Source: Chloranthus sessilifolius
Lineage: Eukaryota > Streptophyta > Magnoliopsida > Chloranthales > Chloranthaceae
Reading direction: 5' to 3'
Assembly: GCA_021018995.1 (NCBI GenBank)
Contig: CM037593.1
Location: 18,008,088-18,072,087 of the forward strand
DNA: 64,000 nucleotides
Positions 3,109 through 49,235 of the stretch are shown in pieces. How positions within the stretch are numbered: the stretch's first letter is position 1; every line of letters begins with the position of its first letter. The position numbers and the translations under genes were made by a program. The notes under the pieces were generated by a model. It saw only the letters and a program-made list of their open reading frames with translations. It was not told where the DNA came from and made no database searches.

Positions 3109-4472
3109 ATCCATGTATGGGGACTCCCGCTACACTTCTGGAACATTGCAAAATTTAAAGAGATTGCTGCTAATTGTGGGAGATTATTGGAAGTTGATCC
3201 TAACTCTTTAAATTTTAAGCGTATTGAATATGTCAAACTTAGAGTCTCCTCTCCTCTTTGGTGGGAGATTCCACAGGCTCTCGAAGTGCAAGTTCAAGAT
3301 GAAACCATTCTATTGGCTCTGGATATTGAACTTGATTCTAAGCCGACTCCATCGTAAACATTTGTCACTCTGATTATCACAGTAAATTCTACCTTGGTGG
3401 CTCCATCAGCAAATGTTGCTAATACTGTTGCTCCGACCAACAATATAGCCACCGTTCACTACTCCGATACCCAGGAAACAATCGTCGCTAGATCAAATCA
3501 AGTGTTTGACCATTCATTTCGTTTTGGAAATTTGAATTTTGATTTTCAAAATTGTGAAAAGCCGCTTTCGCTTGATTTCATTGGCTGCCTTTCCCCTTTT
3601 TCTTAGGATGAGAATCTGGTCGAGAATCCCAATATGCTTGCAATCTCGAGAACTTTCAGCGCCAGGACCGCACCCCCTAATATTGTGGAAGATCCCATAG
3701 CTCAAGCCATGATTTTAGAAACTTCTCCGAATAGAAAGACTGCTGCAAATTCTACTATGATTGGACCTATTTCTACTGGGCCTGTCTTCAACCCAAAGCT
3801 CTACACTGCTGACCCAGCTCCTAACCCAACAGCTCCAACATCGGGGCCATGTCCTGAGCCTCAGATTGGACCCATTTTTGCGGGCCCTTCACACAAACTA
3901 ATAGCTTCAAGCATAGATTACCCACTTCCTCTTTCCACTCTAGCTTCTGCACACCTCGGTCAAGCTCCCAACTCTCACCAAGATCCATTATCCCCCTTAG
4001 TGGCAACACCCCCATCTAACCAATTTTTTCAGCGGTCTCCTCCCTCTTCGTGTCACTAAATTTTCTGATGATATCACCGATGAAGCCATTCATCTAGAAA
4101 CCAATTGTGAAGAATATAACATTAGCGAAAGAAAAAGTAGCTAGAAAAATGATTTGAATGATGATTCCGAAGTGGACTTTGTTTCGAGAGTTGATCGTTT
4201 CTCTCAACCAATTCCTGAATCAAATGACCCCAACAAAAACGATGTCACAAAAACCCAGCCACAACGCAAACAAGGTCAATGAAACCGCGAACTTGGAAGT
4301 ACCATTCAATTCCTTTTGCAGCAATGACGTCAGAGCAGAATTCGAAGACAATCTTCTATCTGAAAATCAGGGTAATGAGATGGAAATGATCTTTGCTATC
4401 AAATCCTCCAATCATAATAAGACGAAAGTCGAACTCAAACGGTTACAGTGGTCCTTGAGCTACACCCATTAA
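3109..4472 (+). pseudogene. LINE ORF1 remnant (nucleic-acid-binding protein)
   Basis: Reading from about 3109, the translation shows the motif WGLPLHFWN, followed by CGRLLEVD and a VKLRV segment, typical of the DUF4283-type domain at the start of plant L1 ORF1 proteins. A stop follows at about 3355. Later pieces at 3394-3606, 3634-4059 and 4158-4472 are Pro/Ser/Thr-rich or acidic linker-like sequence in different frames. No CCHC knuckle is seen. ORF1 ends 25 bp before the ORF2 start, the usual spacing. Known for the family: ORF1 protein binds element RNA and chaperones it. Confidence 0.6.
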
Positions 4473-4499
4473 GCTTCTCGATTTCGGAGTCGGAATATA

Positions 4500-7400
4500 A
4501 TGCCCATTCTTACTTGGAATGTTTGTGGTTTCGACAAAAGTTGCAAGTGTGCTGCAGTCAAGAGTGTCATCACCAATAATAAAGCTAATTTAGTCTCCCT
4601 TCAAGAGACTAAATGGCACCAAATTGATGGAGCCAAACTCCAATCCATTACTCCAAATGCGGATTCGAACTAGGCACATAAAGATGTGAACGGAACCAAA
4701 GGTGGAATTCTAGTCATGTGGGATAGCGCCATCTACGAAAACCAAGGTCACTGGACAGGTAATTTTAATATTTTGATATTGCTTCTTGATAAACGAAAGA
4801 ATATCTCTTTCCTTTTTACATCAGTTTACGAACCTTGTATTAGGGGTGCGGATGTTGAATTATGGGATGACCTTTATAGATGGAAAATCCTCCATCAGGG
4901 GCCATGGGTGATATGTGGGGATTTTAACTCCATCTCTTATCCTCACGAAAGATCCAACAATTTCCACTTTTCAGATTCCATGAGAAACTTTTACTAATTC
5001 ATCAACGAAGCTGAACTAATGGACATTCCTATGTCTGGGGCCCAATTCACTTGGACTAATGATAGAAGCCCGATCACTCTCTGCGCTTAGACCGTTTTCT
5101 CATCAATGAAAGTTTTGATACCTTATATCCCATCGTTGATTGCAAAGCCATTACTAGAGTTACATCTGATCACACTCCCCTAATTCTAAACTTGAACGGA
5201 ATCAAATGGGGCCCTTCTCCTTTTAGACTTTACAACCATTGGCTTGACAATAGCGAATTTGCTGAAAATATGCCCATGTGGTGGGCGGCTACGGGTGGTC
5301 TCCACTCTATATCATCTTAATTCCACACCCTCAAAACATACATATCCGAGTGGAATAAAGATCACAAAGCAACCATCAAAGCTGCTGCTAATATCATTGC
5401 TGATACCATTAATAATATCGATCTATTAGAGAAACCTCATCATCTCACTGATGAAGAAACTTTGGAGAGAGAAAGGGCTAAAAGTAGCTATGCTAATCTT
5501 GCGTTGAACATTGAAAAAGAATGGCATAAAAAATCATGTATCTAATGGCTTAAAGAGGGAGACAAAAACACGACCTTTTTTCACTCTTCTGCCAACATCT
5601 GTAGGAAAATTAACACCATCTCCACCTTAGACAAAGATGGAATCTCCTACTCTAAACCCGAAGATATTGCCGGTATAGCCATTCAATTCCTTGAAAATCT
5701 GTTCAAAGAAACAAATCACAAAAGGCCACATTTGAACAATCCCAAAGTTTTATCCCAATCTGCAGCCGATCATATTGAAGATAAGTTTCACATTGATAAA
5801 ATTTGGGTTGCTATAAAGAGTTGTAAAGCTCAAAGAGCCCCCGAACCTGACGGATTCACGATTGGTTTTCTTCATAAATATTGGTCGACCGTCAAAGATG
5901 ATGTGATCCAGATGCTTGAAAAATTATGGGAAGATATCCATATACACAAGTCCATAAACTCTACTTTTGTCGTTCTCATTCCTAAGGAGAGAGGAGCTGC
6001 AAAAATGAAGAAATTCAGACCTATTTCCCTGGTCTCCGGCCTTTACAAAATTATTGCCAAAATCCTCATCAGCAGGTTGAAAAAGGTCATCGGCTCGATT
6101 GTTTCTAAATCTCAAGGTGCTTTCATTGAAGGGAACTCGAATCTTGATCTTGCAGTTTTGGCTCAAGAATGCACTCACTCTGAACACTCAACTAAAAAGG
6201 AAGGGGTTCTTATCAAAATAGATATGGAGAAGGTTTACAATAGGGTAAGTTGGGATTATCTTCTCTGGATGATGAAAAAAATGGGCTTCAGTCAAAGATG
6301 GAGATCCTGGATCCACGGTTGTTTTGTTAGCGCTCACTTTTCTGTCATTATTAATGGGAAAGCTTGCGATTTCTTCCAGGCCTCTAGGGGACTAAGACAA
6401 AGATGCCCTTTATCTCTGTACCTTTTTAATATTGCCAACGAAGGTCTAGCACTCTTATTTCAACATGCGAACTCAAAAGGTAAAGTTATTGGCTTTTCTA
6501 ATCCTAGATGCAATTTTAATATCAACCTCTTACAGTATGCTGATGACTCTCTTATAATGTGTGGTGGAGAGATCAACCAAATTCGGCAGGTGTGCAAAAT
6601 CCTCAAAGTATATGAAAAAGCCTTCGGTCAACAGGTGAACTTTGAAAATTCCAATATATTCAGTATTAACATATCAAATACTCTCTTGAATAGTTGGTCC
6701 AATGAAGTCAAGCTCGTCCTTGCCAAGTTCTCACTCAAATACCTCAGTGTTCCCTTAGGCATTGGCAAATTAAAATTATCTGCTTGGGATCCTGTTATTT
6801 CAAAAATAAATGACAGACTAAGTGATTGGAAAAGCAAAATCCTCTCTAAAGGAGGAAGGTTGACACTTATACAATCGGTCCTCAGCGATGTTCCCACCTA
6901 TTTCCTCTCCATTTACAGATGTCCTGCCACTGTGTGCAAGGAGATTGAAAGGCTTGAGCGTAACTTCCTATGGGACAATATCGGAAGCTCCAAAAAAATT
7001 TATTTGATTGGGTGGGACAAGGTGGTGAAGCCCAAATGGGCCGGGGGTCTTAGCATCCGACCCATTGACAAGATGAACCAAGCTCTTCTTATGAATTGGT
7101 GGTGGCGTCTCAGAGATTCCAATGAAGATTGGTTCAAATAAATTATCATTAATAATTATCGTATGAGTAACAATGGCTGGGAGTGTAGAAATGGAAAATA
7201 TCAAAATTCTTCATAGTGGTGGAAAAGTATCATCTCCGTTAGGAACATGTTCATCAATAACATATCCTACTCCTTAGGTAAAGGAGACCAAATTCGTCTC
7301 TGACTTGACAAGTGGAATATTTTGCCAAATCCTTTACATTTTCAATTCCCTAACCTCTTCAGAATCGCTGATAATCCATAAGCTTATATTAGTGATATAT

Positions 7401-8146
7401 TCGATTAGAATATTTCTAGACTTTGGACCATCGAATTCAAGAGGAGACTTAATGATACATAAATCATTGAATTTTGCGCTCTCTCTATCATTTTGGATAA
7501 TACCTGCCGCAGCTTGACCCTTTCGGATCGCCGCATCTGGGCCACTAATTGCAACAAGACCTTTTCCGTCAAATCGGCCTACAAATCATTGGTGGAGAAC
7601 TTCGACAAAATAGATTGGTTATATATCTGGAATCTCAAGATCCCGCCGAAAATCACCTTCTTTTTATGGATGGTCCGATGGAAAAGAATCTCCATCATTA
7701 CCCACTTAACCAAAAGAGGCATGTGCATCGATCAAAAGTGTTTCTTGTGCCTTGATGCTGATGAAGATATAGATCATTTATTTCTCCTATGTCAGAAGAT
7801 ATGACCAATTTGGATGAGCATTTTCAAAGTCTTTGGTGTTACTGCTTGCTTGCACAAAGGAGTGATAGAACTTATGGACGGCTAGGACACTCATCTATTC
7901 AGTGGTTTCAAGAAATGGTTATGGTCGCATATCCATTATTCTCTCATATGGAATGTTTGTCTTTTGAGAAACTGTATTAGATGTAGTGGAGATCATTTCA
8001 GTGAAGGATCTTTAGTTCGGGATAACATTCTCACTTTATGCTCTTGGGCCGTTGCTGTTGGGGTTGAAGACCCATCTATCTTCACCATCAGACGATTCGA
8101 TGTCGAGCATCTTCTTTCTCTTATTAATGTTTGTAATTGGGGTTAG
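4500..8146 (+). pseudogene. LINE ORF2 remnant: endonuclease, reverse transcriptase, zf-RVT
   Basis: The likely start ATG at 4500 opens an endonuclease frame with the motifs WNVCG, QETKW, GDFN (about 4918) and SDHTPL (about 5166), interrupted by stops at about 4672 and 4995 and by a frameshift. The longest open piece (5732-7141) is the reverse transcriptase: FRPISLVSGLYKI, QGAF, the palm motif DMEKVYNR where the usual second acidic residue is Asn, then YADD at about 6537. The zf-RVT-like end lies at 7493-7804, with an FFLWM segment and C-x2-C...H...C residues. The last piece reaches a stop at about 8146. In active elements this protein nicks DNA and copies element RNA. Confidence 0.85.
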
Positions 8147-8390
8147 GTCATTGCTGTATTTTTTGGTTTGTAGGAGGTTTTTTCCCGGCCATTTTGGTTT
8201 CCTCCTTTTGTAGGTTTTTTTCCCTTTTTGGTTTTCGTACGTACCTATCTTGGTCTTCTCTGGAAAATCTGATTTTTTAGATAGCATTGTCTAGGCATTG
8301 GCCTGCGATTTTGGGGTTTTCTTCGTGTCTCTTGTCCTATTTTTTTATTAATAAAGATACAATTTTCAAATAAAAAAATTTAATTAGCTT

Positions 8391-8992
8391 GTTTAATGCC
8401 TAGCCCAGTTCATCCAATTGAGATCCCTAGTTTAAATCGTCATTCTCCAACACCAACACCAACACCGTGCTTTTAATTCATGCTGACGGCACAAATATAT
8501 TTGGTGGTGTTGGTTGGTAGGTGGTGGTGGTGGTGGTTTGGGAGGTGGTGGTGGTGGTAGTGGTAGTGGTGGGGAGAATGTAGTCGTGGTAGTGGCGACG
8601 ATGGTGATGTTGGTAGCATTGATTGTGGTGGTGGATTGTTGCGCGAATATCAACGATTGGTGTTTTGCCCAAAAGGATTTTGGGTGGATCATTGTGAATT
8701 TTTGATATCAACAGTTGGTTAAAGCATTCAAGTTTGGAAGCTCTGAAGATGAGTCGCAAGGATTTGTTGGATTACGAAGGGATTAGATAGAACATCGCAT
8801 GCATATTGTTATATCATTCATACTATTTGTAATTGTTTATTCTATAGTGGATTTGGTTGCTTGGAGCCTTAGACTACGGTCCACTAGATGTTTCCTAGTG
8901 ATTGTGTTTTACAATGTAAAAAATTATTGTGTACATTTTTTTGTGATTGCTTGACTGTTCTTGCTATATTGATTAGGATTATTCAGATAACT
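8391..8992. repeat. Unassigned DNA with imperfect GGT trinucleotide repeat
   Basis: Positions 8500-8640 are an imperfect (GGT/GGA)n tract that opens artefactual Gly-rich and Pro/Thr-rich frames on both strands. The CCTAGCCCA...GATCCCTAG sequence at 8397-8433 resembles a hAT-MITE end but no partner was found. Nothing else is recognisable. Confidence 0.4.
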
Positions 8993-10096
8993 TGTAACAA
9001 CCTGAATTTTCTTAATTTTATTTAATGGTATTAGATGATGTTTTGCACAATGCATGAGCGCTTCACACCGGAACCAACCGTATTCTTAAAAAACCTTATT
9101 TAATTTACGTAACTCTCTCTTCACTTTTCTTATTATAATCTTATAAGAAAACCTAGCCGTCTCTTAACTCTTTTTCTTCTAAGAAACCCTAGCTGTCGCA
9201 ACTTCTCTTCCTTAACTCACCTCTCCCAAAACTCTCTAATCTCTTTCCTCAAAATTTTTGTGTGTTCTTCCGCAAGAACCACCGTGATCCATTTTCACTG
9301 ACAAAATCAAGAAGGAAGAAGAAGAAAGCTTGGATGAATCGATGATTTGGGCATTTTCAACCCTAACCATCGTAGATCTACCGTTCACGCTTCAACAGGT
9401 GGGTACCCATCAATCGACTATGTTCTTCTAAGATCCCCTTGCGCATCGACGTGCTAAATAAAACGAACCTGCATATTTCTATTTATATAAATATTGCTAT
9501 AAAAATAAGAATATGACTAATCCTAATTATAATTTTATTTTATTTATTTTCTTATTATTTTTGGGTCTTATTTCGAGTCCATGATATTGATGCGATAATG
9601 AACCCATAAGACTTAGTATGGAAGACACTGCTTGAAATAGGATTCGATGTCAACTTTTGAAAGGTTTAGTAGATAAAAATTTATGCTAAAATGTATTGGA
9701 TTGCACCACCATGTACTTTCGGGTCCGAACTCGCGTCCACGAACTCGAACTCACGACTATCGATGTATCAGACTCGGTATTTTGACTATAACATTTTATT
9801 CTGACCTCGGATTGACGCAATTCTTACGACATTGTAAAAAAGATAACGAGCTTTATAACTTTGTGTGAAATAGTAATTTCATGAATCCGATATTTTAGAG
9901 ATCAAAATAAAGCGGTAAATCGGGATCAATTCTTAATGACCCAAGGTTGCACGAATTTAATATTATTTTTCTGAATTTTATGATCATAATTCATGTGTAT
10001 ATTATATCTTACTTAAAGTCTTTCGATCGATGATTATGACAAATCTCAACTTAAGAATTATAACTATCATTTAATTTAATTATCCAATTATAGTAC

Positions 10097-10135
<39 letters not shown>

Positions 10136-13100
10136 ATTTTATTGCTTCAACGCGATCTCCGCGATAGCAAGAAGATTTAGAAATTCGATGCCCTCATAAA
10201 ATCGAACTCTAACCTTCACATTTTCGATTTCAAGTATATCAATAACTACCTTATTCTATATTTGTATTGGTGTGTTATATAAATATACATATAAACATAA
10301 TGTAATTTTGAATATAAATCTATCTATCAAGTAAGATGGTTCTATGTTTCCATCTTGATTATGTTGTACGAGTTAAGGATAAACTAGATCATGTATGAGA
10401 GTGTGTGAGATCATACTGATGAGTAGTGAAATATGATAATATTTCACCCCTAAATACCTACATTTAGTCTTTCGATGAAGGCTATCAGATGAGAATTACT
10501 AGATTTAAAGAGTTTAAGGTAAATACAATCAAAGTACATAAAATAACCCAAGAGTTCTGAAAATAATGTCAAACACTGTAACCTTGGGTCATCGAGAACT
10601 TATCACAACTTGCAGCTCAATTTAGACCTTCAAGATGTTAGATTCATGAAATTGCTAAAACACAAAAGTTGTAAAGCTTTCTGTCATCTTTCTAATGCCA
10701 CAAGAATCATGTCAATCTGAGTTCAGAGTAGAAAATTATGGCTGAAATACCGAGGCAGCATCTGATGAAGAGTTGGGCTGAAGTTCACGAAAATATGACA
10801 AGGTCGATGCATCGACCTTACACTCGATTAATCGAGGGACGTGATTGAGTTTGACACAAAAAGCACCTTTTTGGTTGCAGAATTATAGAGAGTCGATTAA
10901 TCGACTCTGGCATCTCGGGCTTGGAGACCTGCGAGACTTGGAGAGTATTTAAAGCCACAAACAACAACTCGGGACATACATACGCAGATATAAAGATTTT
11001 ATTTTTTAGAGAGTTTTGTTGTTCTTTTACCTTCTTGTTTTAGCATTCATTTCTTTCGAGAATTTTATTCTTGCTCAATTAATTCCTAGCTTAAATTTAG
11101 AGATTAGTAGAGAGTATTTTTAATTTCGTTTCTAAAGATCATTATACTCGTAGATTAAGCTTGAATCAAGGAATTGCTATTGAAGGTTGAGGTATTTTTA
11201 ATTAATTAGATCTATGTTATTTTTCATTTATTACTTTCTTATGTCGTTTAATTACAACATGTGTGGCTAATTTCTTAGAGATGGGGATCTAATGATTCCC
11301 ATCCGAGGGATGTACTTTTAGTAGTATAAATCTAGGATTAAAATTTGAGATTTTATTTTATGGTTGTTATGCTATCTCGAACTGATGAAATCCCCGCCAC
11401 CACTAACTGGGATCGAGTGTGCCGAGTCATGCCCTGAATTTCAGATATGTGACGCTAATTTTATCTTAATTACCCACTGTGGAGATGATTTTTATTTGTA
11501 TCTGAGATCAAGTGTGCTGAGTCATGCCCTTGATCCTAGATCTATATATGGAAATCATCTCTGAAATTAAGTTCTGATTGCAGGGATGCAATGTAGAACC
11601 TATTCGGGTTTTGATAATTTATCTTTCATAAAAGATGCTTTTCAATGGTATATCTCATAGTTTAATCCTTAGATTTGTATTACACGAAGAACAAACTAAA
11701 GATATGAGGATTTAGTATCTTCATCTTTACCTTCATTTTTGAATTATTAATTAAACTTTATTTTGTAGTCAGTAATTATCTTATCTCACAAAATCGCCTA
11801 AATCATAATATTAGGAGGGTACTGTTAAATCTTTATAGATTTCTTGAGTTACTGTTTCATCTTTTTGAATCTTCTAAATTAGTCCTCGTGGGAACGATCT
11901 CGTACTCCGCACCCACCATCTACAATCTGATTCGTGCGCTTACGAGTAAAACATCACAATTAAAATTGCATCACATGCCTACTCTTAGGCGTGGTGTTTC
12001 TCTGAGATGATATTGAAGCGGGGATCATACCATATTCGCATGCCTCACAACTCATGATGGTATGAGACATTATGACAAGTGTGGTGAGTGTGAATTTAGT
12101 GTAACCTCGTATATGGTGTCATATATGGTGATCCTATTACCCTTGAGCTTTAAAGTTGACTTGCTTAAGGTTAAATTCATGTTAAGTATTAAATATGATT
12201 ATGATAATAAGACACCGCTGTGTAGGTCAATATAAGATTAAGAATTTAAGTTTGTACGTGTCATACCTTACGTAGCCACCGTAAGGACCGCAACGTCTAC
12301 CATCAAGACAAGTTTCAGAGAAGACAATATGAGTTATGTTACGAAGTGCATGTTCTCGCCTTTAGAGACCGTACACAATGGCCAAGTCTCCCTATAGGCT
12401 GAATGGGGTGTATGAGTATATTATGATATGAAAGGCGTTATCTTATGGTGGTAAGGTACTTTGGTGACCTTCACATGGTAGGTTCGAGCATTGACTCTGG
12501 CATAGGACGTATTAGGATTACAAGTATGTAAGTATGCCCATGCGATGTATAGATACATGTGACGAAATAATAAGTTGTGTTATATTTATGAGGTATGGTG
12601 ATGTACTTTAGGACTGAAGTGTGTCTAGATTATGTTTTTGCATTATGATATGATATGAATTCAATGATACAAAATAATTTATTATTTCCTTCTTTCATAT
12701 TATATTGCTATACTATTTTATCACTCACGAGATGCACCCACTATACACCTGAATATAGTAGGGGTGGATTGGTGGTGTATTTATTTAGTTGCATGTTGTT
12801 TAGCAACTTTTCCCTCGTGACATTAATCATTTCAAGTGATTATGTCGACAAAGTGAATGCTGACTATTCTGATCCTGCCGACGCTGACTTCGTTCACCTC
12901 GTGGACGCAAAGTACCAGGAGCCTTTGGAGAACAACACTACAAGGCACTAGGAGGATCTTGGTACTGCCTTTGATCCGAACACCGATTACTGATAGCGCT
13001 AGTTTGGTATAAAGATTAGGATCTTTAGTGTAGCCAGTTATTTTTTTGTTTTATTCATACAGTTATTGTCTATTCATGACCTCATACTTTTGATTTATGT

Positions 13101-15292: not shown

Positions 15293-15456
15293 CTTTTAAG
15301 ATTCCCAACACTTAATTCAAGATAAGAGACCATGCAAAAGTTATGCCCTTGTGCAATTTGAATCTCCCATCTTACTCTTTCAAGCATTTACATGAACAAG
15401 ATAAAGTCGGAAATTTGTAATCTCCTTGTTGGACTAACCCAACTTCTTTACTTGTA

Positions 15457-15586
15457 GGGAAATTTACCTGACCGGCCCTGTTAGATACGCCTTTTACGTC
15501 AGAAGCCCTGTAGTTTCACTTTTACCCAAACAAGCTTGCTGCGCGCCGAGCCGACGCACGCCTTTAGGAAATGTCCAAACTACCCC
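15457..15586 (+). repeat. MULE left terminal inverted repeat
   Basis: It pairs with 24823-24952. The first 70 bp differ at few positions, for example TGTTAGATACG against TGTCAGATACG. The inner end is gradual. Confidence 0.85.
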
Positions 15587-15848
15587 CAATGTAATAAATA
15601 GCCGTCCTCTTTTCAAATAATTTACTGTTTACCTTTTTTACTTTTTACTTTTTTGTTCGAAGTCGGTGGAGAGTCATTGTCGCTTCGTGGATGCTAGCGT
15701 TCAAATCTACAATCTTCAAGCTACCAAATTTGTAAGTTAGAATTAAAATTACCTTCTATTGCTTTAGATTTTTTTTTTCTCCTCTCTTTGGTGCACATTT
15801 GTACATAATCTTTTATGGTTTTCCCATATGTACCGATTACATATTGAG

Positions 15849-15946
15849 TCGCTATCGATTACATGTAGAGTCGATAACGATTATATATGTAGTCGTAATC
15901 GACTATATAAATAGTCGATGACGACTCTATAAAAAATCGATATCGA
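15849..15946. repeat. 22-bp phased palindrome array A (5 units)
   Basis: Cores start at 15849, 15871, 15893, 15915 and 15937, exactly 22 bp apart: TCGCTATCGA, TCGATAACGA, TCGTAATCGA, TCGATGACGA, TCGATATCGA. Each 10-bp core is followed by a 12-bp AT-rich spacer. It lies between the left TIR and the first open frame. Confidence 0.95.
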
Positions 15947-16228
15947 CTCTCTATGAATATAATTAATACCCATCATATGAATTAATTTTCCTATAATTAT
16001 TACCCTCGATGCCATAACCCATAATAAACCATACGAGGTTTTATATTTATCTCAGCCGACGTTCAATTTATTGCCAACTACCCTTTTGTAAAATCATTAT
16101 GTCAAGTTAGCTTGGAAGAATGAGAAAATTTAATACAATGATTCGTATTCCACCATCTAGGAGCTTTAAATACAGGTTTAGTTCGTCCTTAGCAAACCTG
16201 TCATCCCTACCAGTCCATACTTTTCCTA

Positions 16229-16465
16229 ATGTCAGACGACGAAGAAAAAACTTACTATAACCCAATCAAGTTCGAGCTTGTATGGGGGGACCCACCACCA
16301 GAACCAGATCCTCTGCAGTTCCTGTGGGACGAGTACGATGAAGTAATGGAAATTATGGCGAAGGAAGAAAAGAAAAAGAAGAAGGAAGAAAAGAAAAAGA
16401 AACTTAAGACGGAACCACCCGCCTCTCTACCCCATCCACCACTTGCTCTTTATCCATCTTCCTAA
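16229..16465 (+). CDS. Short acidic/Lys-rich open frame, possible 5' exon of the MULE protease gene
   Basis: A 78-aa frame, not recognised as a family. The N-terminus is acidic (MSDDEEKTYY), the middle carries DPPPEPDP, and residues about 50-62 are Lys/Glu-only before a Pro-rich end. A TATA-like TTTAAATA lies at about 16165. It sits between repeat arrays A and B, as an exon might, but no clean splice donor at its 3' end was found. It could be a separate small gene or a chance frame. Confidence 0.35.
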   Translation: MSDDEEKTYYNPIKFELVWGDPPPEPDPLQFLWDEYDEVMEIMAKEEKKKKKEEKKKKLKTEPPASLPHPPLALYPSS

Positions 16466-16684
16466 ATTTTGGTTAGAAGCGGAAGACTGCTCTTCATCCA
16501 TCCACCTGCAAGATTTTATTTTCATTTTTAATTGTAAATGAAATATTATGAATGTAATTAAAAAATTTTGAAAGTAAATGAAACATTTTGATTCAATGGC
16601 AACTTCATGAAATCTTTTGAGTCAGTAAATTAAATATTTTCAATGTAAATAAACATTGTGAGATTTTTGCGACTTTATATTGAG

Positions 16685-16891
16685 ACGATACCGACTGTAT
16701 AAATAGTCGATGGCGATTTCATATGTAATCGATATCGATTACATCTAGACTCGATATCGATTACATATAGAGTCGATATCGATTATATATAGACTTGATA
16801 TCGATTACATCTAGAGTCGGTATCGATTACATATAGGGTCGATATCGATTACATATGTAATCGATATTGACTCTATATAAATTGATATCGG
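16685..16891. repeat. 22-bp phased palindrome array B (10 units)
   Basis: Cores start at 16685, 16707, 16729, 16751, 16773, 16795, 16817, 16839, 16861 and 16882, mostly TCGATATCGA with TTACATATAGAG-type spacers. It lies just upstream of a TTACAG acceptor-like site near 16966. Confidence 0.95.
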
Positions 16892-17832
16892 TTTTATATA
16901 TTACATTTCATTCAACATTTAAACTATCCTTGTTAGTATGGGGCTCAGTCATTTCTTTTTTATTACAGTTCATTTCAAAAGGCTATCAAGATGGTTGTAC
17001 ACCGAGCTGTTGCTAAGTGTTAGCATAGTGCCATTTCGAATCTCTATGAAAATGCTACCCCAGCTCGGAAGAAGTTGCTGAGAGATTTAGTTTTTGATGG
17101 AATATTTCAAATGCCGAAGGGTGTGAGATTTATTTCCAATGTGGTGGATGCGATGTTACCATTTTGGGTTGAAAAAAATCACTTTCGAATTGGGAAGACT
17201 GATGTCTATCTTCGGAAGATAGACATTGCATTGATATTGGGCCTTGCCGTAGTTGGCCTAGAAAAGTATACCCATCCGTTAAACCTTCGGAAAAACAAAT
17301 CATTCGATACAAATACTTTCGTGGAATGCATCCTGAAAAAATTCTTCAGTCTCATATAGATGCTGCAATTTGGAGAGCGAAAAGTGATGAGGACTTCGTA
17401 AAGTTGTCCCTTCTATTTGTGTTGTGAATATTTCTCTTCCCCGGGTCCCACCATCAACTTTCGGAAGACCACATCGATCTCATCGATGATGTGGAGAACT
17501 TTAACCGAACTCCGTAGGGTCTGCACGTCTACCAAGACTTGATCGAGTATATAATGAAGGGCGCGGCGAATAGAAAAACTGCCGAGATGGATAAAGCCCT
17601 GAAGACGTACAACACATATGGATGCATATGTGTACTTCAATGGTGGGCTTATGAGATCCTGTCCGATATATCGCCATCCCAGCTAGGCCTCGAGGACCCT
17701 TTCCCATGACTGCTGAAATGGTCGGACAGGGTGCAGTCAAGGATCAAAGGTTACACTCGCGGACAGATGTTAGACAGTAAGGTATGAGGTCTATTGTCAA
17801 TTCAAAAAGCAACTTACCGATTCATTCTAGAA

Positions 17833-18150
17833 TCGATAACGATTCATTAAAGAATCGATAACGACTTTTTAAGAAGTCGATAGTGACTCAGTATAGAATC
17901 GTTATCGACTACTTATTAAGTCGATAACGATTCATTAAAGAATCGATAACGACTTTTTAAGAAGTCGATAGTGACTCAGTATAGAATCGTTATCGACTAC
18001 TTATTAAGTCGATAACGATTCATTTCGGAATCGATAATGACTTACTAAGTAGTCGATAACGATTCATTAAATAATCGATAACGATTCAGTACCGAATCGA
18101 TAACGATTTATTAAATAGTCAGTACCGATTATTTACATAATCGAGAATGA
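17833..18150. repeat. 22-bp phased palindrome array C (15 units)
   Basis: Cores from 17833 to 18141 hold exact 22-bp phase. Positions 17833-17920 and 17921-18008 are two near-identical 88-bp blocks of four units each. Common cores are TCGATAACGA and its complement form TCGTTATCGA. It lies in an intron-like position of the protease gene. Confidence 0.96.
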
Positions 18151-18839
18151 TTTATTATATATACAATCATTTTATTCTATTATTTACCATATTTTCTTTT
18201 CTTTCAAAAGGTTCGCGCTCCCCTCGTGCCTCAGGGCTTTGAATTAGAGATACCCGTGTTAAGAGAATATCTACGGGTTCAAAAGGAGGTTGGGGGGAAG
18301 AGGAAAGAACCGGTCAAGAAAGTTGTAGAAGAGATGCGGCCGAAGAAGAAAAGAAATTACATTCCGATCGAGAATATTGAAGAGGAAGAATGGGATGACG
18401 CATTGACGTCAGAAGAAGAACCCCCCTCGAAAAAGGGCCCCATCCATGTGGGAGAGGGTCGGCCAAGAACTAGGGGGGCCACCAAGGAGAGCCTGGCAGC
18501 AAAAGATAGCTCAGCTGAACCGTCCACCTCCAATGATTCTTTGTTGAGGAGGGTCGACCATTTAACGCTGGAGAACTTGAAGCTCACCCAAAGAGCGAGC
18601 GATTTGGAGGGAGAGAATAAGGCCCTGGCTAAACGTTGCGCCTCTGTAGAGAAACTATGCAACTCCTTCAAAGAGCGGCTGAATTCAAGGGATGCGGAGT
18701 TGCAGAAGTTAAATCACTACAACTCTTTGGTTAGAAAGGGCCAGTCGAATATAAAAGAACTCCTTAAAAATTTATTGGAGGCGAGACCTAGGGTATGTGT
18801 TGAAATCTGGTTTTATATGTTCAGTTTTGTTAACATAAA

Positions 18840-19069
18840 TCGATATCGACTGTATATAGAGACGATAACGATTATATACACAATCGTTATCGACTGTATA
18901 TAGAGTCGATACCGATAATATATAGAGTCGATATCGATTATATTTACAATCGATATCGACTCTATATACAATCGATAACGATTGCTAATAGAGTCGATAA
19001 CGATCATATATAAAATCGATATCGACTATATATACAGTCGATAACGATTATATTTAAAATCGATTTGGA
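18840..19069. repeat. 22-bp phased palindrome array D (11 units)
   Basis: Eleven cores from 18840 to 19060 at 22-bp steps lie between the GTATG donor-like site (18793) and the CAG acceptor-like site (about 19128), that is, inside an inferred intron. Confidence 0.95.
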
Positions 19070-19802
19070 CTTTTTAAAATGGGGACCAAAAATTAATTCT
19101 TATTTTGCACCATTATTTTGATGTACAGGATGTGGCTATTGAGGAGCTGATATCGAAGGTGTGCCACATAATCATCAATAAGGAACCATCAGCTCCTGTG
19201 CATCAGGTTCCTCTTCCTCCTCCCATTGATAAGGTGACGGCAGCTACTGACGAGCAGCCTGAGAGTCAAACTGATAAGGGTCCTCCTGGTGAAGAGGAAA
19301 CCTCGTCCCAATTTCCTCGCCAACAAGCTGAGCCTCGCTTAAGACCTAGGCAAGGGAAACTCAGCAAAGTAACTACCATCAGACCTAAGGCACAGCGAAG
19401 GGTAGCGGCTGTAAAGAAGCCTATCGACAAGGCCAGTGAAGGACCAATTGCTGAGCCTAGACCAGTGGCACTCATTACCGCTGGTCCTGGGTCTACGGCT
19501 GAAGATGCTCCTACTGAGTTTCCACCTGAGCTGACAGCGGAGCAAAAATATATGCTAGACATATTGAACAAGCCTCTGAAGGAGGACGAGTAAGTTATTC
19601 TTCCCTGATTCCTTAACTTTATTATTATATATTTATCGTGAAGATTAGTTAAGTTGGCCATTATTTATGCAGCGAATATGTAAGCACTGTCGGCAAGTAT
19701 AAGCTAGTAGTGCAATCCTTCAGATGTCTGGTGGCCACGCAATACCTAGATAACTTTGTAAGTTTAATATACTGTAGGCAAAATCAAAAATAGTTAAAGC
19801 TG

Positions 19803-20029
19803 TCGATGACTCGAAATAGAGTCGATATCAATTCATTATAGAGTCGATGACGATGACTTACATCATCGTTATCGACTCTCAAATTAATCGATATCGATGG
19901 CTTTTAAAGTCGATAACGATGGCTTATGTAATCGTTATCGACTCTGTAACTCATCGATATCGATTCATTGGAGAGTCGATAATGATGACTTAAGTCACCG
20001 TCATCGATTACTTATAGAGTCGATAACGA
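19803..20029. repeat. 22-bp phased palindrome array E (11 units)
   Basis: Cores run from 19803 to 20020 at 22-bp steps except a first step of 19 bp. The array lies between the GTAAGT donor-like site at 19758 and a TTTCAAG acceptor-like site near 20080. Spacers here include GATGACTTAC-type sequence not seen in other arrays. Confidence 0.94.
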
Positions 20030-21075
20030 TTATGTATTTAACTCTAACTGCATATTTTAATCTAACTGCATTGGTTTCAAGTTATGGGCGCCTATCTGAG
20101 ACATTTGGAAGTAATTGATGATAAAATTCATCCTGATAAAAAGCTCAAAAACTTCCTTATGGTAACGCACTGACGTACATGGGCTATGAACTGAGAGATT
20201 TCAACAAGTTCCTGCTTGCTGAAAAATTTTACGAACAATCGATCGAGGTTCAAGTTCAACGGTGGGCTGCCTATAGAGAAAAAGAGACCGGAGGGAAGAA
20301 GCTGATGGAAACTTTCTTCTTCAATGAGCTTTGAAATCTGTGGGCTCACGAATGTAGCGTAGTATGCTTTTATCCTCTTTATAATTATTCTTTTTAATTT
20401 TTCTATCATACCCTTTGAGATTATATTACTTTTTTGTAGATATTTATGCTAATACATTCAGAACAACCACTACATTGGGCGCTTGCGATTGTGAAGGTAG
20501 TCGAACGATCGATAATGATCATCAACCCTATATTTAATAGGCCCTCCAAGGAAAGATATGTGTCCCAATTACAAGCGCTGGTAAAATATTTTACTTAGCA
20601 TATCTTTTATCATTATTAGCTTAGCATATCTGACACTCCTCTCTATTATTTTGAAACAGACTCAATACCTTCCCGTAATTTTATATTCGTACGGTGATTC
20701 CACTGCACTGATCGCGAAGAACTATCCTTGGTCATCTAGTGACTGCCGGATCAAAGCCCTCCCCCAACAGACCAACTCGTGTGATTGTGGAGTGTTTGTT
20801 GTGAAGTATGTCAAGTATTTCATGATGGAGAAGAAATTTGACTTCGTGCAATCACATATAGATAGGATCAGGACAGAAATTGGCCATATACTGGCTACAT
20901 ACACAGGCGATGGCAGAGTACTGGCGAAGGACGACAAAAAGGAGGGGGCGCAGCAGTAGTGTGGTTGTATTTTAATATTTTTGTAAATGTAAATAAAATA
21001 TTTTTTGTTAATAAAAAATTTTAAATATAATTGCACCATTTTTATGTAGCTGTGGTTAAAAAGTAGAAATCGCAG

Positions 21076-21349
21076 CCATTATCGACTACATATAGAGTCG
21101 TCATCGACTATATAAATAATCGGTAACGACTCTGTATGTAATCGCTATCGACTATATATAGAGTCATCATCGACTATATACATAATCGATAACGACTCTG
21201 TATAGAGTCGCTATCAACTTTATATAGAGTCGTCATCGACTGCATAAGTGATCGATATCGATTCTTAAATGAATCGATATCGACTTTATAAATAGTCGAT
21301 GACGACTCTATATAGAGTCGATATCGATTATGTATACAGTCGATGACGA
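21076..21349. repeat. 22-bp phased palindrome array F (13 units)
   Basis: Cores run from 21076 to 21340 at 22-bp steps, including TCGTCATCGA, TCGCTATCGA and TCGATGACGA. The array lies between the convergent 3' ends of the protease gene (20959) and the transposase gene (21603). Confidence 0.95.
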
Positions 21350-21602
21350 CGCTATGATTAATCGGTAAAGACTATATTACAATAAAAAAAGATAGATTCT
21401 GAATTTCTCGTTTACATTCAATCTATCATTATTAAAAATATACACTGTCAACCCATCGGTCCCACTACCGTGTAGCTCCTGCGATTGTGACCATATTCAC
21501 TACACCTGCTACACTGTAGTGCCCTAACCTCACCCTTAGACCTTATCCTTCTCTTCCTCGGACGGTCAGCTTGCTTTTGGCAATAATAGGGTGGTCTCAC
21601 TT

Positions 21603-24194
21603 TCATATTTTCAGGGAGTTGCTCTGCTTAGAACTCCCATTGACTTTTATCGAGGGTGGGAACCTATTGCTCGTCGTATGTTTATCTAAGCAAGCGGTGA
21701 AAAACCATTTCTCACAAAAGTTATGGTAGTTGTAACTTCTCCGATTGATGGCCGCCACGGCATGGGAGCAAGGCAAGCCATGAATGTGCCAACGGCGGCA
21801 ACTGCAGGTCTTGTGTTCCAAGTCGACGTGATGAATGAAATTTTTGGAATTGACTTGGAATTGATCGCACCTGTATGGTTGAGCTCTCTTTCTACCGGCC
21901 CATTGCAACACCTTCTTCATGTGCGCGTCTGCTTTCGGGCAGAGAAGGGTGATCCATTTCTCATATATCTCTCTGCGTTTTTGAAAATGATCGGCGACTT
22001 TCTCTCTAGTAGTTCTGATTAAGTCGATAATTGGTCTCTCTCGAGCTATCTTTAGTACGCTGTTTAAACTTTCGGCAATATTCATAGTCAGGGAATCGTA
22101 CTGCCTTCCTTCCATATGTGCGCGTGCCCAATGCTTCGGATCTATTTTCAAAATATATTCTACGGCCTGAGAATCAGCAGGATCTTTCTTCATTTCGTTA
22201 ATAAAATAATCCAATTTCTCTTTCTAATATGCACGCGCGGCGCACCACCATAGACCCTTCACATTATTTCTGGGATACTTGTGCTGTAAATTTTGTATCA
22301 TATGCTGCATGTAGTAGTTGTAATATGCGTTAGGAAAGATACATTTCACCGCATTTATTAAACCCATCGACCTGTCCGTGATAAATACGAAATCTTCGTT
22401 AAACCCACCGATCACAAACGCACATACCCGTTCAAGAAATCACATCCACGTATCATCTTCTTCTAACTCGACCACGGCAAATGCTAACAGTAATATATGA
22501 CCATAACCGTCTTGCGCAGAGGCGATAAGTAGGATCCCTTTGAAACGTCCTCGTAGGTGTGTACCGTCTACAAGCAATATGCGACGAAGTGTATTGCGGT
22601 AGCTTCCGATGCATGGGCTAAAACTCTAAAAAAATCTTCGAAACTTACCGTCAAAAGTAAGTTGAAAGGATGCTTGTATATTAGGAACTACCATCTCCAT
22701 CTCCTTCACGTAGGCCGGTAGATCAACAAATTGTCTTTCCCAACTGCCTCTAATATCATTAGGGGCAAGTTCTTTTCCCCTCCAAGCCTTTGCATATGAG
22801 ATTTACACATTATAAGCTTTTACAATATCAAACATTATTGATGCCGGTGTGTAGTTGAATTCTTCCATAAGTTTATCCCGTACATAGTTCGCTACGAAGG
22901 AGATTATTGCATTACGGTGATCGTGTGGTCCGATCTTAGCGGCTCCGCATGTGTGAGTACTATTGAATGTCTTGATTTGGAAAGAATCAAGCCCAGTCAA
23001 TTTAGAAGCATGTATTCACCACGAACAATCGGGTTCGTAGCATCCGGCTGTCACTCGATAACTAGAGGTCCTCAAAGGCTGAATTTGAAAGTTTTTCTCC
23101 ACCGCGTGATCTTTCAATGCTCTTTGAAATATTTGTTTGTCTCGAAAGATCTCTCCAATTTTAAACGTCCAATTCCGATATTCAGTTTTCACCTCTTCAT
23201 CGGAGAAGTCGCCCGATGTCTCTGACATTTCGTAATCTCCGTCTACTAGGGGATTGTCAATGTCTCTCACAAAAATTTTCGGATCCTCTTTGATAAACCC
23301 ATCCGGTTCGCTTTCATATTCTTCTTCTAAGGTATCTTCATTAGTGACTTGAGAATGACTACGCCATTCACTAGCGGTGTTCTCGGGTGGTTGACTAGAT
23401 CCTTCACCGAAGGGGTTCTGATGTGATTGACCGGATCCTTCACCGAATGGATAATGGCGTAGTTGGCTAGGCCCTTCACCGAAGGGGTGCTCATGTGTAT
23501 GGACATGGGGTTGAGTTTCTCCGGTAATTCCCATCGATGGCATGGTAGAACATAAGTCTTGAGTAAACCAATTTATCCATCCACCGGGGAAGATATGACT
23601 GAAATCGCCGGTATCCACCACCCTTTCTGAAGTGTAGTCTAACCATTGACTACATTGTTGTGACCCATGCATGTATTTTATTGGGTCATCATACGATTCA
23701 ATCGGAGCATCGTTTAAATTAAATGTTGCTTTCCCTCTGCCATCGTTCGCCGCAATATAACCGTCATCGCCTAACGGGACGGTATCGTATACAGTTTCAT
23801 CCTCAAACTTACATGACTGAAATGAATGAGTCACAAAATCAGTCCCGCCGAGATCTACTTATTCAGCTTCAACTGAGAAGGATGACGGTTCCTTAATGAT
23901 GAATACTTTTATAACGTCCACCGTGGATTTATAAAACGTAAATAAGGTGGCCAAATCATCAGAGTCCAAAATGTCGGCAACCACAGGCGTATTCACTATC
24001 TTCCTATGAAACTTTGTGGAAACTGTTTCATTCGCCTTCGCAAAACTGACAGCAGACATTCGCCTTATGAATTGTTAATAAGAAATATCAGTTGAAATGT
24101 TAATAAGCCTCTGCCGGCCACCTTCATACAAGTCATCATCATTTACAAGAAGGTCATCATAGTGACAAAGAAGAGGAATCCTCACGTCCGTCAT
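21603..24194 (-). pseudogene. MuDR-type MULE transposase, one continuous frame broken by stop codons
   Basis: Read from the ATG at 24194 the whole protein stays in one frame to 21603 (about 864 codons). It is interrupted by in-frame stops near 24080, 23871, 23015, 22800, 22630 and 22223. In order: an N-terminal MULE-like start (MTDVRIPLLCHYD); an acidic region with repeated PFGEG(S/P) motifs; a MuDR DNA-binding domain ending CYEPDCSW; the DDE domain with VDGTHLRGRFKG, then FAVVELEEDD, then FITDRS and the AESLNS glutamate; and a C-terminal SWIM zinc finger CSCRRWHIHGLPCSHA. This enzyme cuts the element ends and inserts them elsewhere in the genome. Confidence 0.93.
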
Positions 24195-24285
24195 CGTCTG
24201 TTTAAGAATGAGAAGGAAGGGGTCATAAGATTGATGAAACAAAAGAGAAAAGACGACTATAAATCTTAGTCGATTGTATATAGAG

Positions 24286-24493
24286 TCGATATCAATTGCA
24301 AATACAATCGTCATCGACTCCATATAGAGTCGATAGCGATTGTATATAGAGTCGATAACGACTACATATACAATCGCTATCGATTGTATATACAATCGAT
24401 ATCGATTGTATATGTAGTCGTTATCGACTCTATATACAATCGATATTGACTCTATATGGAGTCGATGACGATTGTATTTGCAATTGATATATA
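24286..24493. repeat. 22-bp phased palindrome array G (10 units)
   Basis: Ten cores from 24286 to 24484 at exact 22-bp steps, with a weaker half-unit at 24270. It lies just upstream of the transposase start (24194, minus strand), in promoter or leader position. Confidence 0.95.
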
Positions 24494-24822
24494 TTTAAAA
24501 AAAAAGGGATCGAAGGATATAAAGACCTTTCTTATACTACACGAATAGGAGATACTGTATCACTAAAAGGCACTAATAAACTAAAAATGGGGTTTAAGTA
24601 GGATACCTCGCGTCGCAAGGACAAACTGCAGGGTCTTCTTACTACAATGAAGAAATGCAAGAGCTTCTTCTCCCAAGCCTCTGTTTTCTTCTTCGAAATA
24701 GCAGATCGGAGCAGATCAGACTAAGGAAGGAGATGTCGTCTAGGGTTTTGCACCTCTAACTTTTTTGCAGAATAAAATGAGGAAGAAGATGATGCTTTGT
24801 TGGTTAAAGAAGGTCATAGAAG

Positions 24823-24952
24823 GGGATAATTTGGACCTTTTACTCTCCTTAGGGTCGGCTCGGCTTGGAGCTGGTTGGTTCGGGTAAAGGCTAAACTACA
24901 AGGCTTCTGACGTAAAAGGCGTATCTGACAGGGCCGGTCAGGTAAATTTCCC
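24823..24952 (-). repeat. MULE right terminal inverted repeat
   Basis: The inverted copy of 15457-15586. Its outer end GGGAAATTTACC is adjacent to the TSD TTACTTGTA at 24953-24961. Confidence 0.85.
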
Positions 24953-24961
24953 TTACTTGTA

Positions 24962-35589: not shown

Positions 35590-35707
35590 TTCCCAAATAT
35601 TACTTCCAAAATTCTCTCTCCCTCTCTTCCCAAATCTCACGCCTAAAATTCTCTTTCTCTCTCTTCCCAAATCTCATGCCTAAAATTCTCTTTCTCTCTC
35701 TTTCAAG

Positions 35708-38273
35708 TGTGACAGCCCGGATTTCAGCACCCCGAAACCCGTGCCATCAGCACGATCATCCTGACCGTGCCCCTTAGCTAAGCACGGAACACTAGTATAT
35801 CAAGCATTTCAATAAAATAATAAATGAAATTGCGAAATTTGAATCTATATTAATTAACTCTCCAAAAGACAGTTCTACCCTCATGCCTCTACATGAATGG
35901 AGAACCGATCCGAACCATCGATGATAGCAATCATCACGGATGGTTCGCCCAAAAAGAATAATCCCATCTATATATATATATATATACATGGTTTAAACAG
36001 AATCAAGGCTTGACATACCAAGCCGTACAAAAACTCTCTCCAAAATCCCTCAAAGTGGCACAACGGAGTCCTCTAGAAGAAGTCCTCTGGAGGTGGCTCC
36101 AACTCTTCACCCGTCGCAAGGTCCGACTTCGGGATCTCCTGAAGCCGCGGCAAGTGCTAGTAGTGGACTGCGACGTATAGTCTATAGGTGAGCTACATCC
36201 TAGCTCAATAGGAACAAACACTATTGAACATATAAATTATAACTCACATATATTCCATGATATGCCATGCATGATGTATCTATGCTTGTTAATGAAACAG
36301 TTAAAAGCATTTCGCTTTTATTGTTGATTACTTGTATTTTCATTTACTCATGAATGATGTTTGAAAAGGCCTAAAGCAAAACTTAAACTTTCAACTTAAG
36401 TAATCCCCGAGCAATATAGCATCGAGCCGATGAGATACCCATCATCGCTATCTATATAGACAGCTTTTAACCGTATTCCCTGAATACAAATAGTACCAAG
36501 CCCTTTCCTGGGATTGGTGGCGGGGTTTCACTTATCTCAATCAACACCCCTGGGGTGTGCTTACTATGTACGGATAAGCCTCCGACCGCCTACGGTTTCG
36601 CCACAGATATTGGCCACGGATATCCGCCGTGGTACCTATCAAACCTCAAATAACAAAAATATCGTGTCTTACATATAGTTATTCACCGTAAATGTGCTAT
36701 CTTATATCGCTAGGCCCTATCAAACATGATTCAATCCTTGGATACATCCTCGATGTATCCATTTCCTTGCATCACACCTGATGCTCTCATCTCTTTACTT
36801 CTTCATCCCCTGGGGATGGCTTATTAGAATTTCTCTTATGGATGTCATACGCACACACACTTTTCACAATTCTTAAGCAATTAAACATTTGAATGGAAAT
36901 CTATATCACTACATACATGCTCTTGTAAAATAAAGTACATGTTCAAGGTGTTCCCTACCTCAAGTCTTCATTTAATCAATGCATCAAGGTCCCACGTGGC
37001 TCCTTGTGCACTAGTCCACACGTACCACCTATGGTACCACATAACAGGTGAAACACATCACAAAGGATGCAATAAAGAAGGTGTAAGACCCTCCAAGAAT
37101 CTTAAAGTCAAACCCAAAAGTCAACACAATTGATCTCAGTCGATTAATCGAATTCCAAAATCGATTAATCGAAGGTCAATATCGATTAATCGAAGTAATT
37201 TCGATTAATCGAAATTCTCCTTTTCGCAAAGTCGATCCTCAATTCGAACAGTCGAGTTTTCATTCGATTAATCGAATCCAATTTCGATTAATCGAAATTC
37301 TTCTTTTCGCAAAGTCGATCCACAGTTCGAACAGTCGAGTTTTCATTCGATTAATCGAATCCGATTTCGATTAATCGAAATTCTTCTTTTCGCAAAGTCG
37401 ACTCTCGCAGTTGATTAATCGATCCCAAATCGATTAATCGAAAACTAAAATCGATTAATCGAAATCCCATTTCAATTAGTCGATTTTTCCTTAAGTCATT
37501 TTCTCCAACCCCTGGGGTCCACTGGAGGTTCCCAGTCGATTAATCGATCCCCAAATCGATTAATCGAAATTCAAAGTCGATTAATCGAAATCAAATTCGA
37601 TTAATCGAAATCGGAGTCCTCTGACCTTTCAACTTCCTGGCCAATTTCGATTAATCGAAACCCAATTTCGATTAATCGAAACCCAATTTCGATTAATCGA
37701 ATTTGTCAGATTCAGCCCCTTTCGAGCTGTTCTTCCCAATCTTTTTCCATACTTTTTCCTCTATTTTTCTAAGCCATTATCCTATGATTTAACCCACATT
37801 CAAACACAACTTAACCCCTATAATCTATGCATCTTATTTACGAAAATTTTTACCTTGAATAGATCTCAAATCAAATGGTTGGAAGGCTAGGGTTTCCAGC
37901 TTTTGTTCTAACAGATCCCCGTTGAATCTGGCTTTTATCTCTTGAATCCCCCCCTCCAATCAGTTGCAATAACTCCTCTCCTACTTCTCTCTCTTTCTCT
38001 CTCTTCTTTACTCTCCTTCAACAACCAAAAATACACATCTAGGGTTATTAAACCCTTTTATCTATCTCCCTCATTGTGTGTTGAGCACATACACCGCCGT
38101 AGATGTAAGTGACTTCTCATTTACATCACACACCACATAATCACTCAAACTATCACATCTCGTCCGTTCATCACATTCTATGCTAACTCATGATCTCCTG
38201 ATTGGTCAAACTTGTGACCAATCAGGCACGGATCCCGAGGTCATAGTTTAGCGTGATTTTTCGGGCTATTACA
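35708..38273 (-). repeat. Tekay 3' LTR (left, 2,566 bp)
   Basis: It starts TGTGACAGCCCGG and ends TCGGGCTATTACA on the plus strand. A (TA)n run lies at about 35970. About 19 copies of TCGATTAATCGA-type palindromes lie at 37142-37690. Compared with the right LTR it has many small deletions at 36120-36740. Confidence 0.93.
37142..37690. repeat. TCGATTAATCGA palindrome array in the Tekay left LTR
   Basis: About 19 copies of the 12-bp palindrome TCGATTAATCGA (a few with one change) occur in groups of two to four at steps of about 19-21 bp. Groups are separated by short unique stretches such as CTTTTCGCAAAGTCGA. Confidence 0.95.
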
Positions 38274-38285
38274 TCCTCCCCACCT
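38274..38285 (-). other. Tekay polypurine tract
   Basis: The minus strand reads AGGTGGGGAGGA immediately before the 3' LTR. It is the plus-strand primer for reverse transcription. Confidence 0.8.
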
Positions 38286-46031: not shown

Positions 46032-46032
46032 C

Positions 46033-49037: not shown

Positions 49038-49043
49038 AGTTTT

Positions 49044-49138: not shown

Positions 49139-49175
<37 letters not shown>

Positions 49176-49233: not shown

Positions 49234-49235
49234 TT

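Follow-up and report, generated by a model that had tools for sequence, protein, structure and literature searches.

We analysed a 64,000-nucleotide stretch of the Chloranthus sessilifolius genome (contig CM037593.1, positions 18,008,088 to 18,072,087), referred to here as the window and numbered from its first letter. It contains a Mutator-like transposable element (MULE) in which short CpG-containing sites recur every 22 bp in seven non-coding arrays. The initial annotation had placed this element at 15849-24493. Its borders lie further out at both ends: an identical 9-bp target-site duplication, TTACTTGTA, is found at 15448-15456 and at 24953-24961 and delimits a 9.5-kb element at 15457-24952 with terminal inverted repeats (TIRs). 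Target-site duplications of 9-11 bp are a trait of MULEs, and a related copy, L005, is bordered by TTTTCGATA at each side. The left TIR (15457-15555, plus strand) starts with GGGAAATTTACCTGACCGG and matches the right TIR (24854-24952, minus strand) in inverse orientation at 86 of 99 bp.

The transposase is encoded on the minus strand (21603-24194) in a single frame without frameshift, and its MULE, DBD_Tnp_Mut and SWIM domains (PF10551, PF03108 and PF04434) were all detected above the Pfam cut-off. Six in-frame stops lie within 21603-24074, and a seventh is present at 24075-24077 if the protein begins at the Met at 24194. As the transposase carries these premature stops, the window copy is broken. 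A protein search with the open reading frame (ORF) that holds the MuDR domain gave 192 candidates, none reaching E 0.001, and a search with the read-through transposase returned three distant plant proteins at 28% identity.

A second gene lies on the plus strand and converges with the transposase. Judged from its domains, it is a VANC/KIU-like gene, with a DUF1985-like part below threshold, a coiled coil and an Ulp1 domain. Its 5′ coding part (16991-17781), DUF1985/PMD-like, is decayed and has an in-frame stop after MVVHRAVAKC. It is followed by a fast-diverging coiled-coil exon (18211-18792), a further exon without a Pfam match (19129-19590) and a 3′ part with small introns (20082-20959). Within this last part, the Ulp1 domain (Peptidase_C48, PF02902) at 20645-20956 scored above cut-off with E 8.5e-11; the same domain was found in the relatives L005 (1.6e-9) and L024 (5.2e-9). 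The scanned piece of the 5′ part of the window copy matched PMD alone (E 0.022), with no DUF1985 match. Among the relatives, DUF1985 was found in L010 (E 2.6e-6, 27.9 bits), L016 (E 1.5e-6, 28.7 bits; cut-off 35.1) and L009 (E 0.0037), and PMD reached 31.7 bits (cut-off 34.9). The DUF1985/PMD ORF of L016 had no match among solved structures at E up to 1. In addition, a small acidic, lysine-rich ORF is located on the plus strand at 16229-16465, between array clusters 1 and 2. It has no Pfam match and is matched at the DNA level in 12 of 23 related loci, and is possibly a third gene of the MULE.

To count the repeated sites, a unit was scored when at least five of the six outer bases of TCGNNNNCGA matched. 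This gave 73 in-phase units in seven clusters of 5, 9, 15, 11, 10, 13 and 10, close to the approximately 75 units in seven clusters of the initial annotation. The step that it had called nearly invariant is 22 bp in 66 of 66 successive in-phase cases, and the 15 units it had reported at 17833-18141 are present. Inside the array spans there are two off-phase core matches only, at 18025 and 18086. Cluster 1 (15827-15946; five scored units and one decayed slot) adjoins the left TIR, and cluster 2 (16685-16892; nine scored units and one decayed slot) lies upstream of the VANC-like gene. Clusters 3 (17833-18150; 15 units), 4 (18840-19069; 11 units) and 5 (19822-20029; 10 units) are within the predicted GT-AG introns 17782-18210, 18793-19128 and 19758-20081, respectively. 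Cluster 6 (21076-21371; 13 scored units and one decayed slot) is located between the convergent gene ends, and cluster 7 (24264-24471; 10 units) upstream of the transposase. No cluster overlaps any placed coding part, which agrees with the earlier description of all clusters as non-coding (TIR side, inferred introns, gene-end junction and upstream of the transposase).

Autocorrelation of 15849-24493, proposed earlier as a check with an expected peak at 22 bp and its multiples, has its maxima at 44, 66 and 22 bp (0.337, 0.333 and 0.332; mean 0.266), besides a fainter 11-bp series. Tandem Repeats Finder reported period 22 for six clusters and period 66 for cluster 5. It also found an 88-bp repeat (2.6 copies, 94%) in cluster 3, and the regularity of this cluster is thus partly due to recent copying.

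The unit had been described as a 10-bp palindromic core plus a 12-bp AT-rich spacer. The cores do contain CpG and the spacers are 12 bp long, but most cores are imperfect palindromes: among 74 slots, TCGAT halves are found on both sides in 15, on one side in 51 and on neither in 8. Asymmetric cores occur in both orientations inside a single array. Moreover, the spacers are not mere filler, since they follow the pattern YTNTAT when read outward from the core. An array therefore consists of 11-bp half-units of alternating orientation, each reading A-T-C-G-A-Y-T-N-T-A-T from the core centre outward, and so is nearly its own reverse complement. CGA is retained on either side of the cores while the interior bases vary; transitions affect 14 of 296 CpG bases, compared with changes at 72 of 296 in the four inner bases. 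An intact TCGAT half remains on one or both sides in 66 of the 74 slots, above chance pairing of halves (permutation p 0.0015). The ratio of observed to expected CpG is 3.13 in the arrays, 0.87 in the remaining element and 0.79 in the remaining window.

We then searched the genome (2.17 Gb, 32 contigs) for the array signature. TCGATATCGA-N12-TCGATATCGA was found at 2950 places and the reversed pattern at none, which rules out chance. With any gap of 2-32 bases, TCGATATCGA pairs occur at 3225 places and the reversed pattern at 2. A motif-chosen sample of 20 loci of 10 kb was drawn from the places that came first in the list, which are all on contig C1. A MULE coding match was present in all 20, a transposase in 17 and a TIR in 19. 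Satellite DNA unrelated to MULEs, an origin that the initial annotation had considered, was rejected on the ground that all 20 loci contain MULE sequence. The converse selection gave the same association: three extra copies chosen by their transposase all bear arrays, with eight clusters of at least three units in a similar layout. In the fuller copies, the clusters number seven or eight and are laid out similarly, so relatives lacking arrays or with irregular spacing, also considered earlier, are not what was found; the related copies keep arrays, period and similar layout. One locus, L012, contains an additional TIR and array cluster that seem to belong to an adjacent element. The first look at transposases genome-wide gave 9699 candidates, of which 55 were scored, and the MULE family looks very large.

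The window copy and the 23 loci (20 motif-chosen and three transposase-chosen) were combined into a pool of 24 copies. Here, 609 of 625 strict-core steps within 18-26 bp (97.4%) are exactly 22, and among the 2034 core pairs separated by 30-140 bp, the distance is a multiple of 22 in 1650. Adjacent spacers mismatch at 1748 of 4620 positions (38%). Recent copying alone was rejected, as the 22-bp steps persist despite this spacer divergence; the earlier argument against mere copying therefore stands for the arrays in general, with the exception of part of cluster 3. The proposal that the period is kept while the sequence diverges was also borne out, as the flanks of the core change within the family and the core itself becomes GCGNNNNCGC in two loci described below. 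The lattice, its upkeep across copies, its tie to this MULE family, the domain make-up of the protein in related copies and, as described below, its co-divergence with the site are observed directly.

A neutral origin would also produce a 22-bp unit, if slippage and in-register unequal exchange held it without selection. The 88-bp repeat of cluster 3 fits this explanation, as does the finding that 27 of 229 indels in arrays are exactly 22 bp long, compared with 2 of 496 in other non-coding DNA. Pairwise BLAST alignments contained 229 indels to 3354 substitutions in arrays, 496 to 4192 in other non-coding DNA and 659 to 10260 in coding DNA, or 6.8, 11.8 and 6.4 indels per 100 substitutions, respectively. 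This comparison is weak evidence, and the direct step counts are preferred, because repeats misalign and old copies are decayed. At 11.8 indels per 100 substitutions, we calculate that each junction should have gained approximately half an indel, and the constancy of the step between spacers as diverged as these argues against neutral maintenance. The same applies to the CpG positions, which are retained while the inner bases vary, to the similar layout of seven or eight clusters in the fuller copies, and to the nearly equal period of another core in another lineage. Neutral tandem repetition is therefore considered improbable.

As an array is nearly its own reverse complement, it might instead act as RNA: its transcripts would fold into long hairpins that either supply small-RNA pathways or serve as decoys for them. 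Cluster 4 has a predicted RNA fold of -104.2 kcal/mol compared with -49.0 for shuffles (z -13), and tandem repeats can be sources of small interfering RNA (siRNA), according to the accessible part of PMC10398659. However, 59 of the 74 cores are imperfect palindromes, and arrays are present also at the TIR side and upstream of genes. In addition, across 1004 cores of the 24 copies, the two halves match at the inner position less often than expected by chance (z -5.3), whereas compensatory pairing within a core would have the reverse effect. Selection for an RNA hairpin was rejected, and we give little credence to an RNA role of the arrays. At two spacer positions, matching is above chance (z 6.6 and 5.5). 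The intron array at 18838-19071 is predicted to form one RNA hairpin over approximately 212 of 234 nt.

The copies can be sorted into types according to the coiled coil of their VANC-like protein, which differs by approximately 48-63% between type I and type II, and the sites differ between these types. In the 11 type I copies whose coiled coil is readable, G occupies the third spacer position in 9-24% of half-sites, compared with 55-82% in the seven type II copies. The corresponding share is 27% in L007, whose coiled coil is of a third type, and 25-59% in the five copies in which no coiled coil could be read. Of the 24 copies, 16 retained enough of both genes for Mantel and partial Mantel tests. 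Among these, motif distance correlated with coiled-coil distance at r 0.83 and with transposase distance at 0.59. The partial correlation for the coiled coil given the transposase was 0.72 (0 of 2000 permutations as high), compared with -0.04 for the transposase given the coiled coil. For the array beside the transposase, the partial r was 0.68 with a p-value of 0.0024 (10 of the 16 copies, at least eight half-sites). As this array is remote from the coiled-coil exon and nevertheless co-varies with it, mere linkage is disfavoured. These results indicate that protein and site have diverged together. Cluster 7 contains at least eight half-sites in seven type I copies; in five of these copies, G is the third spacer base in 45-62% of the cluster 7 half-sites, compared with 8-11% in the other arrays.

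The same tests bear on the possibility that the arrays are transposase-binding sites that aid assembly of the transposition complex, for which CACTA subterminal repeats are a parallel. Clusters 1 and 7 lie approximately 0.4-0.5 kb inside the element ends, and within type I transposase distance does correlate with motif distance. Five of the seven clusters, however, are internal, three of them in predicted introns, and over the 16 copies transposase distance explains no motif distance beyond the coiled coil. We attach hardly any weight to this possibility.

A genome search for DUF1985 gave 4046 first-look candidates, of which 150 were scored and listed as over cut-off. Four DUF1985 loci (L029-L032) were fetched blind to the motif. 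Two of them, L031 and L032 (DUF1985 at 56.2 and 51.7 bits), contain arrays with the core GCGNNNNCGC together with Ulp1-like matches of 30-34%. Strict GCGNNNNCGC cores number 21 and 13, respectively, compared with 0.8 and 0.65 in crude two-base-block shuffles, and Tandem Repeats Finder reported period 22 for several of the arrays. With cores scored at five of six bases, the steps are 21 bp in 7, 22 bp in 17 and 23 bp in 4 cases in L031, and 21 bp in 8 and 22 bp in 12 cases in L032. The pitch is thus looser than in the MULE family of the window. No transposase was found in the stretches fetched, which extend approximately 2 kb and 6 kb beyond the DUF1985 domain, and MULE status is therefore not claimed for these loci.

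Two Ty3/gypsy elements elsewhere in the window also contain palindromes, 12 bp in length (TCGATTAATCGA and TCGATGCATCGA) and more loosely spaced than the MULE sites. The older one (35704-38275, 46029-47227 and 59044-60512), whose structure was deduced from self-BLAST, has gag-pol on the minus strand at 41025-45887; its right long terminal repeat (LTR) appears to be split by another gypsy insertion. Many exact TCGATTAATCGA palindromes with steps of 19-22 bp are located in its LTRs and at 40276-40849. The younger element (47228-59043; LTRs 97% alike) lies inside the older one and has TCGATGCATCGA and TCGATTAATCGA palindromes directly before gag (49242-49416) and in its LTRs. The best-scoring named matches to the pol of this younger element are 67-77% identical (Citrus 74% over 36% of the query, Hibiscus 67%, Paulownia 67%, Pyrus 77% over 48%), and the species noted among the 120 listed of 5765 matches are core eudicots. 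A diverged LTR-like copy at 10417-11976, 74-82% identical to the younger LTR, contains one TCGATGCATCGA and two TCGATTAATCGA. The nearest parallel that we found for the gypsy palindromes is the CpG boxes of Sireviruses, as described in the accessible part of PMC2829016. Outside the window, locus L028 (G000:C2, approximately 71087210) contains a long plastid insertion resembling matK within the nuclear assembly, with a reading frame that stays open for 433 codons.

Palindromes in other elements raise the question of a host transcription or chromatin factor whose sites many elements exploit, in which case the element protein would not be the reader. The 19-22 bp steps of TCGATTAATCGA or TCGATGCATCGA in the LTRs and leader of the two gypsy elements speak for such a factor, as do the palindromic CpG boxes in Sirevirus LTRs (PMC2829016, accessible part). 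The gypsy steps are loose, however (19 bp in 9, 20 bp in 11, 21 bp in 19 and 22 bp in 3 cases), and their flanks are different. Furthermore, the site flanks of the MULE subfamilies vary in step with their own coiled coil, and another lineage uses another core, where a single host reader would favour a single motif. A host factor as the reader of the MULE arrays is therefore judged unlikely.

We favour the explanation that the arrays are docking platforms for the VANC-type anti-silencing protein encoded by the element, which is predicted to bind them, and put its probability at about 0.62. This reading is based on the placement of the arrays, the type of protein and the coupled change of protein and site, all of which match VANC anatomy; its specificity is based on the MULE in all 20 motif-chosen loci and the arrays in all three transposase-chosen ones. 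The VANC-like role suggested by the initial annotation thereby gained a candidate protein, DUF1985-like with Ulp1, whose variable middle co-varies with the motif, and the role itself stays a prediction. The VANC-like protein (DUF1985-like, coiled coil, Ulp1) would bind the TCGNNNNCGA sites, probably as a dimer with half-sites CGAYTN read outward from the core, and protein units would be aligned on the array with a constant spacing of 22 bp. Bound protein would then remove or block host silencing marks nearby. As the arrays occupy most of the non-coding gaps, loss of methylation could extend over the entire 9.5-kb element. Protein binding, dimer formation, packing at a fixed pitch and any change in DNA methylation are what we infer from sequence.

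Several observations weigh against this explanation. The window copy itself is defective. DUF1985 stays under the Pfam cut-off throughout its MULE family, and DUF287 was not found in the gene pieces scanned, which do not make up the whole protein, at E up to 0.1 or 1. The arrays do contain indels between copies in the BLAST alignments. The co-divergence signal is mostly between types, with few clades: within type I (nine copies) the correlation is 0.79 for the transposase and 0.80 for the coiled coil, and without L007 (eight copies) the transposase (0.84) exceeds the coiled coil (0.62). Within type II (seven copies), the coiled-coil correlation is 0.39 with a p-value of 0.058. Among the DUF1985 loci, L029 and L030 have no such arrays within the 8 kb examined, and in L031 and L032 strict-core pairs have no preference for 22 over 21 bp (21 bp in 3, 22 bp in 2 and 23 bp in 2 cases in L031; 21 bp in 3 and 22 bp in 0 cases in L032). 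Lastly, according to the accessible parts of the VANDAL papers (PMC5735166 and PMC10398659), VANC21 motifs have one orientation, published VANC motifs are without CpG and VANDAL TIRs are degenerate, whereas the window MULE has near-palindromes in both orientations, CpG in its sites and TIRs of approximately 100 bp, 86 of 99 alike.

The 22-bp period had been attributed to helical phasing. The period is firm, and the helix is only one reading of it: 22 bp is approximately 1 bp over two turns of B-DNA, and contacts between neighbouring proteins may therefore set the pitch besides the helix. A packing distance of the protein or in-register recombination could explain the pitch just as well. In Sasaki 2022 (EMBO J), motif sequence, density and helical periodicity reportedly set VANC specificity.

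A more far-reaching version, possible and in our view doubtful, is that the transposon carries an anti-silencing switch that polymerises and is gated by methylation. The element protein would read unmethylated CG palindromes and form a filament with 11-bp half-unit spacing. Since each full site has two CpGs, host methylation and protein binding would be mutually exclusive, which would give a two-state memory. Protein-protein contacts would keep the lattice geometry nearly fixed, and the change of the outer core base from TCGNNNNCGA to GCGNNNNCGC would make the lineages independent switches.

If the docking-platform reading is right, VANC-type anti-silencing, worked out in Arabidopsis, would extend to a large TIR-MULE family of another plant. 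The system would also be cleaner, with a near-crystalline lattice, two CpGs per site, matched variants of protein and site by subfamily, and a second lineage with one base per half-site altered at nearly equal pitch. This would allow tests of how the DNA is read, of gating by CpG methylation, and of pitch versus sequence as the determinant of specificity. A wide family could supply natural parts for targeted demethylation.

The closest known system is VANDAL/VANC of Arabidopsis. As described in the accessible part of PMC5735166, VANC21 binds YAGTATTAY arrays in the non-coding parts of VANDAL21 and removes methylation, locally in the CG context and across the whole element in non-CG contexts; VANC6 has a different motif. 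The same kind of non-coding parts is targeted by RNA-directed DNA methylation (PMC10398659, accessible part). In the accessible texts, the systems have in common a MULE with a second gene of DUF1985-type domain (below threshold in the family of the window), family-specific short motif arrays that occupy introns, the region ahead of the transposase and other non-coding DNA, and a motif that differs by family and changes along with the protein. The window MULE differs in its strict 22-bp pitch with half-units alternating every 11 bp and in its Ulp1 domain; DUF287, shown in VANCs in the Fig. 5 legend of Hosaka 2017 (PMC5735166), was not seen in the pieces scanned. By analogy, the element would work like a VANC system, and as a VANDAL it fails on orientation, TIRs and DUF287 (in those pieces). 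PMC12844716 and PMC12312487, in their accessible parts, cite VANC work only. By titles and abstract openings, we found no such MULE arrays beyond the VANDAL work, and among the papers listed on motif strings none concerned plant transposons by title.

KIU genes are counted among VANC genes in the accessible part of a review (PMC13317346). KIU/Kaonashi-carrying elements and the Ulp1-bearing MULEs of melon, grapevine and rice have Ulp1 in the second gene, as here; the KIU elements described are non-TIR, unlike the window MULE, and phased CpG arrays are not mentioned for them in that part of the text. Sirevirus boxes (PMC2829016, accessible part) have in common with the MULE arrays that they are high-copy palindromic CpG sites clustered in non-coding parts of plant transposons. 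Sireviruses, however, are Ty1/copia elements, their boxes have a CGG-CCG core in all but one and sit in LTRs and before the envelope gene, and no element-encoded reader is proposed for them there. Compared with the accessible parts of the VANDAL papers, the features that are new in the window MULE are the CpG in the site, the dyad symmetry with mixed orientation, the strict pitch and the long TIRs.

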